From: Aquiflexum gelatinilyticum
GTDB lineage: Bacteria; Bacteroidota; Bacteroidia; Cytophagales; Cyclobacteriaceae
Length of the DNA stretch: 64,000 nucleotides
Assembly: GCF_024741135.1 (NCBI RefSeq)
Contig: NZ_JANSUY010000014.1
Location: 1-64,000, forward strand
Direction: 5' to 3'
A model generated the notes under the pieces. That model did not search any database and had not been told where the DNA came from. It saw only the letters and a program-made list of their open reading frames with translations. Made by a program: the position numbers and the translations under genes. Each line of letters begins with the position of its first letter. Position 1 is the stretch's first letter. Positions 15,578-53,441 of the stretch are shown here, piece by piece.

Positions 15578-15663
15578 CAGGTTCAATTTTGAAATAACAT
15601 GACATAAACTTTGAAATAACACGATATAAACTTTGAAATTACATACGTTCAATTTTGAATTGA
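15571..15663. repeat. Four tandem 22-nt imperfect repeats
   Basis: Units at 15571-15597 (27 nt, slightly extended), 15598-15619, 15620-15641 and 15642-15663. Each begins CAT/CAC and contains AACTTTGAAAT or GTTCAATTTTGAA before the next CAT. The last three are exactly 22 nt, two helical turns, so they would present the same face to a DNA-binding protein. The block abuts the ATPase remnant. There are no unique spacers, so it is not a CRISPR. Confidence 0.8.
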
Positions 15664-15740
15664 CATGTGGTCTATTAGTTTTTCTATATTCGAAAAGAGT
15701 CAATTTGGGCGTATTTGCTTTATGTAGTTTCTGATTTGGA

Positions 15741-51725: not shown

Positions 51726-51794
51726 AAAACCATCCGTTGAATTATTCATTATTGCAATTTTATTGAACATTGGGGATACCTAACGTTGAAAAAC

Positions 51795-51826
51795 AAAAAA
51801 GCATCCCTTTTCAAGGATGCTTTTTT
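51795..51826. terminator. Bidirectional terminator, DUF4221 gene / tRNA-Cys
   Basis: A perfect 12-bp inverted repeat (51795-51806 with 51815-51826) with A- and T-runs on both sides. It ends the plus-strand lipoprotein gene and, from the other side, tRNA-Cys. Confidence 0.88.
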
Positions 51827-51830
51827 TGTG

Positions 51831-51901
51831 AGGTCGAGAGCGGATTCGAACCGCTGTACAAGGTTTTGCAGACCTCTGCCTAGCCACTCGGCCACTCGAC
51901 C
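51831..51901 (-). tRNA. tRNA-Cys (anticodon GCA)
   Basis: A 71-nt standard cloverleaf: acceptor GGTCGAG/CTCGACC, D-arm GCC-GAGTGGCTA-GGC, anticodon stem GAGGT/ACCTT with loop CTGCAAA (U33, GCA at 34-36), a 4-base variable loop, T-arm AGCGG-TTCGAAT-CCGCT and discriminator U73. CCA is not encoded. It has its own promoter and terminator. It is the intact relative of the six-copy array that follows upstream on the same strand. Confidence 0.95.
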
Positions 51902-51915
51902 GTTTTTACGGAATG

Positions 51916-51946
51916 CAAATGTAGGGATTCTACTAATTAAATCAAA
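51916..51946 (-). promoter_or_regulatory. Promoter of tRNA-Cys
   Basis: On the minus strand TTTG (51943-51946), exactly 19 nt, TACATTTG (51916-51923): a perfect match to the Bacteroidetes consensus, 14 nt before the tRNA 5' end. Confidence 0.82.
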
Positions 51947-51989
51947 CGGAGTTTAACCTAATTTTGGTTCTAATAAAATTTCATTTTTT

Positions 51990-52028
51990 GATAAAATAAA
52001 AGAAGCTTCCCAATTGTGGGAAGCTTCT
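51990..52028 (-). terminator. Terminator of the tRNA-Cys-like array
   Basis: A perfect 11-bp inverted repeat (52001-52011 with 52018-52028), loop of six, then TTTTATTTTAT on the minus strand. It starts 1 nt past the last array copy, so it ends transcripts arriving from the array. Confidence 0.85.
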
Positions 52029-52029
52029 G

Positions 52030-52099
52030 AGGTCGAGGATGGATTTGAACCACCGTAGAAAGTCTTGCCGACTAACGCCTAACACTCGGCCACTCGACC
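52030..52099 (-). ncRNA. tRNA-Cys-like RNA, copy 6 (last of the array)
   Basis: A 70-nt tRNA-like sequence. Acceptor GGTCGAG/CTCGACC and U73 are the same as in tRNA-Cys. The T-arm GGTGG-TTCAAAT-CCATC is sound. The D-loop is one base short (GAGTGTTA), without a G18-G19 pair. In the anticodon arm (stem TTAGT/ACTTT) only three of five pairs form, the loop is CGGCAAG with G at position 33 in place of U, and C32 can pair with G38 to leave a 5-base loop GGCAA. Variable loop CTAC. Followed directly by the array terminator. Confidence 0.8.
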
Positions 52100-52224
52100 T
52101 TGTAAAAACCATTTGACTTAATAGAAACCTGAATCCGGAAATAAACGAAATACAACTTTGCTAAAAAGCCTTTTTTAAAAGATGGGAAGGAATTTTGATT
52201 GGACTGAAAACCATTCCTGTATTG

Positions 52225-52294
52225 AGGTCGAGGATGGATTTGAACCACCGTGGAAAGTCTTGCCGACTAACGCCTAACACTCGGCCACTCGACC
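52225..52294 (-). ncRNA. tRNA-Cys-like RNA, copy 5
   Basis: Same as copy 6 except for one base: variable loop CCAC instead of CTAC (plus strand G at 52252). It lies beside an A-type spacer, as does copy 2, the only other copy with this variant. Confidence 0.8.
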
Positions 52295-52419
52295 TTATAA
52301 AAACTATTGACCTTCAGACAAATGAGAAAGGAATTTAATCCAACACAGTTGGCCAAAAGGCTTTATGATAAAATTTGATGGAACGGTTTACCTTGGGTGA
52401 TTAAAACGTTCTTTATTTG

Positions 52420-52489
52420 AGGTCGAGGATGGATTTGAACCACCGTAGAAAGTCTTGCCGACTAACGCCTAACACTCGGCCACTCGACC
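52420..52489 (-). ncRNA. tRNA-Cys-like RNA, copy 4
   Basis: Identical to copy 6 over all 70 nt, including G33, the short D-loop and U73. Lies beside B-type spacers on both sides. Confidence 0.8.
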
Positions 52490-52614
52490 TTATAAAAACT
52501 ATTGACCTTCAGACAAATGAGAAAGGAATTTAATCCAACACAGTTGGCCAAAAGGCTTTATGATAAAATTTGATGGAACGGTTTACCTTGGGTGATTAAA
52601 ACGTTCTTTATTTG

Positions 52615-52684
52615 AGGTCGAGGATGGATTTGAACCACCGTAGAAAGTCTTGCCGACTAACGCCTAACACTCGGCCACTCGACC
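52615..52684 (-). ncRNA. tRNA-Cys-like RNA, copy 3
   Basis: Identical to copies 1, 4 and 6. On the plus strand it is preceded by a B spacer and followed by an A spacer. Confidence 0.8.
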
Positions 52685-52809
52685 TTATAAAAACAATTTG
52701 ACTTAATAGAAACCTGAATCCGGAAATAAACGAAATACAACTTTGCTAAAAAGCCTTTTTTAAAAGATGGGAAGGAATTTTGATTGGACTGAAAACCATT
52801 CCTGTATTG

Positions 52810-52879
52810 AGGTCGAGGATGGATTTGAACCACCGTGGAAAGTCTTGCCGACTAACGCCTAACACTCGGCCACTCGACC
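52810..52879 (-). ncRNA. tRNA-Cys-like RNA, copy 2
   Basis: Carries the CCAC variable-loop variant, as copy 5 does, and like copy 5 it is preceded on the plus strand by an A spacer. Otherwise the same as the others. Confidence 0.8.
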
Positions 52880-53004
52880 TTATAAAAACTATTGACCTTC
52901 AGACAAATGAGAAAGGAATTTAATCCAACACAGTTGGCCAAAAGGCTTTATGATAAAATTTGATGGAACGGTTTACCTTGGGTGATTAAAACGTTCTTTA
53001 TTTG

Positions 53005-53074
53005 AGGTCGAGGATGGATTTGAACCACCGTAGAAAGTCTTGCCGACTAACGCCTAACACTCGGCCACTCGACC
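53005..53074 (-). ncRNA. tRNA-Cys-like RNA, copy 1 (promoter-proximal)
   Basis: Same 70-nt sequence as copies 3, 4 and 6. Its 5' end lies 11 nt after the -7 element of the only good promoter in the array. The leader TTTTTATATAAG resembles the TTTTTATAAG found ahead of most other copies. Confidence 0.8.
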
Positions 53075-53085
53075 TTATATAAAAA

Positions 53086-53117
53086 CAAATAAAATCACTA
53101 AACCTTAAATTGACAAA
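53086..53117 (-). promoter_or_regulatory. Promoter of the tRNA-Cys-like array
   Basis: On the minus strand TTTG (53114-53117), 20 nt, then TTTATTTG (53086-53093), one mismatch to TAnnTTTG. Similar elements are not evident between the copies, so this may drive all six. Confidence 0.6.
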
Positions 53118-53362
53118 CTTTTTTTAATTTTTTTTTAATAAAAACTCAAATTTTCGAAAGTGTGAATTATTAAAAGTTGAAAAAGAAACTTGAAGATTTT
53201 TAATCGGCTTAATTCATGGTAATATTAATCCAAATATAATTTTATTTATAATGAATCTAAATTGAATACACCTAAAGCAAATACTGTTTAATACACTGAA
53301 ATACAAATACTTAAATTAATTATAATTATAAAAATATGGTTGTCAATTCAAATTGATTCAAG
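53118..53362. other. Very AT-rich intergenic region before the act operon
   Basis: About 245 nt, strongly A/T, with runs such as TTTTTTTTAATAAAAA. No gene, hairpin or repeat I can support. It separates two divergent promoters. Confidence 0.5.
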
Positions 53363-53393
53363 TTTGAAAAATAGAATTGCGATAGTACATTTG
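53363..53393 (+). promoter_or_regulatory. Promoter of the act-cox operon
   Basis: TTTG (53363-53366), exactly 19 nt, TACATTTG (53386-53393): a perfect match to the consensus, 48 nt before actA. Confidence 0.82.
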
Positions 53394-53441
53394 CAGTGTT
53401 TATCAAAAAACGTGCTTTAAACTGTTTAATAAGTAATAAAT

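Follow-up and report, generated by a model that had tools for sequence, protein, structure and literature searches.

A conserved tandem array of tRNA-Cys paralogues in the Cyclobacteriaceae, predicted to keep charging identity and to have lost decoding features

What use could a bacterium have for a tandem row of near-identical tRNA-Cys-like genes beside its ordinary one? The question is raised by the first 64,000 nucleotides of contig NZ_JANSUY010000014.1 of Aquiflexum gelatinilyticum, the stretch of DNA that was analysed and that we call the window. We found six bodies of 70 nt on the minus strand (52030–53074), pairwise identical at 69–70 of 70 positions and spaced exactly 195 nt apart, which confirms an earlier sequence-only reading of six tRNA-Cys-like bodies upstream of, and on the same strand as, a normal tRNA-Cys. 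That canonical gene (51830..51901, minus strand) has a GCA anticodon and U33 and is the sole canonical copy matched by our searches of this genome. Numbered against transcription, the bodies run from body 6 (53005..53074), the first transcribed and a tRNA-Cys paralogue with GCA, G33 and U73, through body 5 (52810..52879), body 4 (52615..52684), body 3 (52420..52489) and body 2 (52225..52294) to body 1 (52030..52099), the last transcribed, all on the minus strand. The one difference in body 5 is a C for T in the variable region, and body 2 is identical to body 5.

The TRF score of the tandem array is 1386 (threshold 50); a separate short tandem repeat with a 22-nt unit lies at 15581–15666 of the window. 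All six bodies, and no shuffle of the window, fit a search pattern written for tRNAs with GCA but no U33. Four of the six passed the gathering score of the Rfam tRNA family (RF00005, Infernal; 39.8 bits), and ARAGORN, run on the window, called none of them, its calls being the tRNA-Cys at 51830–51901 and a tRNA-His. The cloverleaf is the minimum-energy fold of both bodies tested (z about −2.3). With the array as query, a search of the whole genome at E ≤0.001 returned the array and the canonical tRNA-Cys and nothing else. The list of open reading frames (at least 60 aa, standard start) has none within 51726–53441, and among those around the array no cysteine gene was recognised.

Alignment with the canonical gene identifies the array bodies as tRNA-Cys paralogues. 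Common to both are the acceptor stem and U73, as the sequence-only reading had it, together with the anticodon GCA and A37. The bodies in the window have G33 for U33 and G for A38, lack one G of the D loop, and differ further in the anticodon stem, the variable region and the T stem; the acceptor is 7 bp and the variable region 4 nt in the array tRNAs. The alteration first read into the D-, anticodon and T-arms thus holds for bases in all three arms but not for the anticodon itself, which is an intact GCA. Because that anticodon is kept, the further claim that these tRNAs cannot decode comes to rest on the lost U33 and the lost D-loop G, and we would soften it to say that they are probably poor at decoding.

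The same features recur across 30 full copies from nine genomes. GCA, A37, U73 and the short D loop are present in all 30, and although GCA was built into the expression used to count copies, nhmmer and a covariance model without this requirement retrieved the same ones. Position 33 is A in 11 copies, G in 10 and C in 9; the replacement varies by lineage and is never U, whereas U33 is present in all nine canonical tRNA-Cys genes that neighbour the arrays. Likewise, a single G stands at D-loop positions G18/G19 in 30 of 30 copies and two in 9 of 9 canonical neighbours. A38 is altered in 29 of 30 copies, to G in 28 and to T in 1. In the T stem of most copies, compared with the canonical gene, the 51–63 pair has gone from C-G to U-A, but 49–65 from A-U to G-C, which gives a mixed signal as regards weak EF-Tu binding of the non-proteinogenic tRNA-Gly type. 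The anticodon stem of one copy in L036 is short by two bases.

Absence from related genomes would have refuted the sequence-only reading, but the array was found there, in nine genomes of four genera. A DNA search of 196 family genomes detected tandem copies in the window's genus and three further genera, and the stricter pattern (GCA tRNA without U33) picked out 9 of 390 sampled family genomes, again in four genera. All five listed genomes of genus g1 are holders (the window genome, Cognataquiflexum nitidum, C. rubidum, C. aquatile and Aquiflexum sp. TKW24L), as are both of g2 (Aquiflexum lacus and one further single-contig genome); the remaining two, one each from g27 and g70, are Mariniradius saccharolyticus and Rhodonellum psychrophilum. 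The window has 6 full copies, G064 has 5, G121 and G151 have 3 each, G085 and G001 have 2 each, and G070 has 1; in two genomes the copies are split over two contigs (G172, 3+1; G026, 2+2, with a truncated body at each contig end). The contigs of two relatives (L034/L035 and L037/L038) end inside the array, so that copy numbers there are minima. The strict 195-nt spacing of the sequence-only reading is exact in the window, but relatives have intervals of 175–206 nt and in one case 434 nt. The period is therefore not a conserved property of the array, and its exactness in the window probably reflects recent duplication inside the array.

In all nine holders the array lies with ActA (alternative complex III) on one side and the canonical tRNA-Cys on the other; array and canonical gene are on separate contigs in two of them. 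Beyond the tRNA-Cys, rpsA follows in five holders (window, G064, G172, G026 and G085) and was not met inside the fetched stretch in the other four. Of 22 stretches from non-holders with a single tRNA-Cys, 19 contain ActA and 14 contain rpsA; 11 have the two together, and none lacks both. Degenerate arrays in non-holders were considered and rejected, as covariance model R1 found one tRNA-Cys only in each of these 22 stretches. The simplest account would be a tandem duplication beside the native tRNA-Cys in an ancestor of the four genera, followed by vertical inheritance. A further array, in G010, was rejected as one of the same kind; its Thr and Cys tRNA genes alternate and are read as normal by ARAGORN. 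It comprises six tRNA-Thr(TGT) genes alternating with five tRNA-Cys(GCA) genes with a period of about 180 nt (L041:4341–5314), and neither the variant alignment nor the counts include its five Cys genes.

Is this paralogue under selection? Of the 18 columns that make up the anticodon arm in a 19-row alignment, just four are invariant: G34, C35, A36 and A37. Both sides have changed in six stem pairs, pairing extends to 97.2% of cells and covariation scores 0.195; each of these values, and the count of cells with both sides changed, was reached by 0 of 500 shuffles, a test that related rows may pass without real structure. Controls with the pairing slid out of register had 34–54% of cells paired. 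For further pair types the count is 13, a value that 451 of 500 shuffles equalled or surpassed; in the anticodon stem, where some pairs are broken, pairing drops to 91.1% of cells. The cloverleaf shows compensatory changes, and the paired cells (97.2%) and a covariation above that of 500 of 500 shuffles speak against a tRNA pseudogene in unconstrained pairing decay. The spacers give a second view. The two type A spacers (52685..52809, after body 5, and 52100..52224, after body 2) are identical at 123 of 125 positions and the three of type B at 125 of 125. Without gaps, A and B agree at only 54–55 of 125 positions, while the adjoining bodies differ at no more than 1 of 70; a gapped comparison of A with B scores 97.5 against a shuffle mean of 43.9 (sd 6.9), and 0 of 300 base shuffles were as high. 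Selection on the bodies, or their conversion, would explain how they stay alike while the spacers have diverged. On these comparisons we regard as confirmed a conserved, clade-specific and amplified tRNA-Cys paralogue whose sequence predicts kept charging identity and lost decoding features.

The flanks of the array suggest how it may be expressed. A promoter-like site, TTTG-20-TTTATTTG (53086..53117, minus strand), was seen by eye 11 nt before body 6, with one mismatch to what we take to be the Bacteroidota promoter consensus. A TTTG or CTTG followed by TTnnTTTG was also found by eye upstream of the first body in L032, L033, L034 and L036, as in the window; the region upstream of the first body in L039, inspected in the same way, has no equally clear pair. 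The canonical tRNA-Cys has a promoter-like site of its own, by eye TTTG-19-TACATTTG (51916..51946, minus strand), and a separate terminator-like site (51795..51826, minus strand). Directly after the last body of the array is a terminator-like 12-pair stem followed by a T-rich tail (52001..52028, minus strand). The terminator scan gave 2 sites against a shuffle mean of 1.5, so the weight of these sites comes from their position and from the relatives, where a hairpin and T-run after the last body was recognised by eye in L032, L033, L035, L036, L038, L039 and L040, as in the window, and in weaker form after the single body of Rhodonellum. Judged from these sequence features, the array is probably one transcription unit making several copies of the tRNA-Cys paralogue.

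Within the array, many internal bodies are followed by a hairpin element, GAACGnnTTAATCACCCnnnnTAAAnCGTTCC or a related form. In the window this trailer hairpin, GAACG..TTAATCACCC..TAAA.CGTTCC, lies on the minus strand in the type B spacers after body 6 (52965..52996), body 4 (52575..52606) and body 3 (52380..52411); the type A spacer after body 5 has a weak hairpin only (z −0.21). The strict hairpin core occurs at 9 sites in 5 of 20 genomes, all within arrays, of Cognataquiflexum and Mariniradius, and was not found in 4 of the 9 holders; related forms are present in two more arrays (L036 and L040). RNAalifold found no pair in the trailer hairpin with both sides changed, and its conservation is therefore clearer in sequence than in structure. 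Its loop, AAUCACCC (window 52965–52996 and copies), shares AUCACC with what we take to be part of the 3' end of 16S rRNA, perhaps by chance.

What could such an RNA do? In E. coli and yeast, cysteine identity depends mainly on U73 and GCA (PMC9976931). U33 is critical for decoding, and natural G33 or A33 is rare (PMC11415595). Furthermore, a tRNA-Gly of S. aureus that is kept out of translation has its G18G19 replaced (PMC4052509). From the identity bases kept and the U33 and G18G19 features lost, we infer that CysRS charges the array tRNA and that the ribosome uses it poorly. We therefore propose, tentatively and at somewhat below even odds (about 0.45), that the array provides a chargeable, non-decoding Cys-tRNA pool for a non-ribosomal cysteine-using step. 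The array transcript would be cut by the ordinary tRNA-processing enzymes, CCA would be added, and the single CysRS would charge the product with cysteine; the ribosome would use the charged tRNA poorly or not at all, and the pool, staying out of translation, would be handed to the non-ribosomal step. The 20 genomes searched, among them the nine holders, each have one CysRS over the family cut-off; a second CysRS was rejected, with none over the cut-off and only weak extra PF01406 matches. C32 and G38 could pair and shrink the anticodon loop, which might hinder CysRS and counts against charging.

Among the roles first proposed for the array, the best fit is that of a Cys donor in a non-ribosomal reaction, but two enzyme families known as consumers of aminoacyl-tRNA do not track it. 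The PEARL/LanB C-terminal family (PF14028) was found in 0 of 9 holders and 2 of 11 non-holders, and FemAB (PF02388, E ≤0.001) in 1 of 9 holders, weakly, and 5 of 11 non-holders, and both were rejected as consumers. BshC, which adds the cysteine in bacillithiol synthesis, could be a consumer. BshC (PF10079) is present in 9 of 9 holders and also in 11 of 11 non-holders, and hence does not track the array either. Elements of its structure, a Rossmann fold and the connecting peptides CP1 and CP2, resemble aminoacyl-tRNA synthetases. The fold and both peptides are described in a 2015 review, according to which no in vitro activity of BshC had ever been demonstrated and the ligation mechanism was unknown (PMC4360819). 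It has also been speculated that tRNA-Cys may store cysteine for bacillithiol (PMC5372718).

Other explanations have to be weighed against the Cys-tRNA pool. Charged or bound by CysRS, the array tRNAs might instead buffer or sense, titrating CysRS, cysteine or another tRNA-binding factor with no downstream transferase. The surplus of array copies in the window genome, six where one canonical tRNA-Cys was matched and one CysRS found, the retained CysRS identity bases and the speculation on a cysteine store (PMC5372718) are consistent with such a role, which we nevertheless consider rather unlikely, as a CysRS sponge would be expected to cost translation and the open reading frames around the array include no recognised cysteine gene. 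The fluid copy number, from 1 to 6, the shortened L036 copy, the broken anticodon-stem pairs and the further pair types that do not exceed shuffles could all be read as signs of a functionless relic, a row of pseudogenes that unequal crossing-over and gene conversion maintain. This is unlikely for an array that is kept at one place in four genera, has six pairs changed on both sides and an invariant GCA-A37 and U73, and whose bodies remain alike while the spacers diverge.

If the tRNAs were active on the ribosome, they could form a slow-decoding isodecoder that tunes the translation of Cys codons. The kept GCA would suit this, and so would the case of a mistranslating tRNA-Ser, whose decoding G33 seems to reduce but not abolish (PMC11415595). 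Against it stand the absence of U33 from all 30 copies, its place taken by any of three other bases, the lost D-loop G and the altered A38 in 29 of 30, as well as the tRNA-Cys genes among the matches listed for 247 genomes of the phylum, which by eye read U33 outside the window; we think an isodecoder quite unlikely. The tRNA units could also be a processing scaffold, excised to free spacer RNAs in which the AUCACCC-loop hairpin is the functional product. The restriction of the strict core to arrays (9 sites, 5 of 20 genomes, two genera) and the related forms in L036 and L040 point that way, but spacer A is without this hairpin, the core was not found in 4 of 9 holders, the consensus hairpin shows no both-side pair changes and the kept GCA would be left unexplained, all of which makes a scaffold highly improbable.

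Cysteine tRNAs without U33 are not confined to this family. A scan of GTDB contigs for GCA tRNAs without U33 gave at least 118 stretches, of which ten (L107, L110, L119, L134, L136, L138, L141, L145, L169 and L176) were dropped before neighbour clustering as likely chance matches without a tRNA. Excluded from the base counts were 14 of 131 pattern copies: those in the ten dropped records, in two records that reach the end of a contig or stretch (L103 and L168) and in two whose acceptor stem pairs less well (L102 and L172). Outside the Cyclobacteriaceae, the matches listed include 97 well-formed copies in 96 of 109 records, with C33 in 60, A33 in 28 and G33 in 9. Among these listed copies, U73 is present in 59 and absent in 38, 30 of which have G73. 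The 38 are unlikely cysteine acceptors, so that a lost U33 does not always go with cysteine charging. A conserved GCA tRNA with A33 and G73, not a normal cysteine acceptor, occurs in L081, L082, L090, L094 and similar records; 25 such copies are listed, many from Chitinophagaceae or unplaced Bacteroidetes. By pattern, a U33 tRNA-Cys is also present in 16 of 29 carrier genomes, and the pattern may miss it in the other 13. BshC (PF10079) was detected in 16 of 26 other carriers of non-U33 tRNA-Cys and not found in 10. The array in the window is the most amplified case of a non-U33, U73 tRNA-Cys(GCA) that we met.

The neighbours of these genes, in organisms other than the holders, give suggestive links to cysteine genes. 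Of the 96 records listed, 8 include a cysteine synthase in the stretch, six of them from Verrucomicrobia (L084, L085, L151, L159, L165 and L179) and two from KSB1 (L154 and L170), and NCBIfam confirmed the assignment in both records tested, L165 and L170. Sulphate ABC transporter genes are near in several Verrucomicrobia records, with a more distant likeness in Acidobacteria (L087). A GNAT domain (PF13480) was recognised in one KSB1 neighbour protein tested, and both KSB1 records encode proteins related to it. On four candidate-phyla contigs (L111, L140, L185 and L192) a conserved protein of about 320 aa adjoins the non-U33 tRNA-Cys; the best matches of its low-confidence structural model (mean pLDDT 60) are two isonitrile synthases, PIsnA and PvcA, at E about 1e-6, followed by cyclodipeptide synthases at E about 2e-3. 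Neighbours were named by profile for 34 proteins, covering part of the 108 clustered records, and ten neighbour proteins of other records, many of them Chitinophagaceae-like, showed no clear link to cysteine synthesis. A 350-aa reading-frame family beside some non-U33 tRNA-Cys genes was rejected as an antisense shadow, with cysteine synthase on the other strand.

Among 247 Bacteroidota genomes (162 matched), the tRNA-Cys genes among the matches listed all read U33 by eye except the six of the window. A similar pattern search for other isotypes yielded 33 rows from 31 of the 247 genomes, which by eye are 12 tRNA-Gln out of register, 5 Val(GAC)-like with C33 and otherwise single cases or not tRNA. 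These pattern controls indicate that non-U33 tRNAs are rare in the sample and not restricted to cysteine. The tRNA-Val(GAC)-like genes with C33 were seen by eye in G523, G463, G639, G565 and G497. The best-ranked matches in the open-licence literature gave no description of this array or of a non-U33 tRNA-Cys.

Specialised tRNAs set aside from translation are known in few cases, and we know of no cysteine tRNA shown so far to be among them. tRNA array units mix isotypes, whereas the window array is of one isotype with an altered anticodon loop; the likeness lies in many tRNA genes standing close together (PMC5966550). The non-proteinogenic tRNA-Gly of S. aureus, used by FemXAB for the peptidoglycan bridge, likewise has extra copies with altered D-loop G18/G19 and is thought to escape translation (PMC4052509). 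The array differs from it in being for cysteine, in having lost U33, in its near-identical tandem copies, perhaps in its T-stem changes, and in having no FemAB link. The naturally mistranslating tRNA-ProX is a natural bacterial tRNA with A33 for U33, but has, by the account in PMC11415595, dual identity with foreign anticodons, whereas anticodon and acceptor of the array are both Cys. Like the array, the selC* tRNA-Cys is an extra tRNA-Cys with U73 and, in part, GCA (PMC7609411); unlike it, selC* is described there with an 8/4 fold and longer acceptor, anticodon and variable arms, compared with the 7-bp acceptor and 4-nt variable region of the array. The PEARL enzymes (TglB) provide a precedent for the non-ribosomal use of Cys-tRNA-Cys that we propose for the array, but the assays described used P. 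syringae tRNA-Cys (PMC9016710), and PF14028 is found in 0 of 9 holders.

A broader reading would join these observations, and we think it very doubtful. On the strength of the sequence patterns, non-U33, U73 tRNA-Cys(GCA) might be a non-decoding class for cysteine metabolism, serving as the donor of BshC here and other consumers in other phyla. If this were true, the cysteine that BshC adds in bacillithiol makers would come from Cys-tRNA, the donor so far missing, and all nine holders would be such makers, judged by their BshC genes; other phyla would use other aminoacyl-tRNA enzymes, such as the GNAT protein of KSB1 and the isonitrile-synthase/CDPS-like protein of the candidate phyla. The array makes the open question of BshC ligation, as posed in PMC4360819, testable. 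Moreover, a multi-copy array with CysRS identity and without U33 offers a clean test for a private bacterial Cys-tRNA pool. Aquatic bacteria that carry extra tRNA-Cys copies apparently fit for charging and poorly fit for decoding suggest a use of cysteine beyond protein synthesis.
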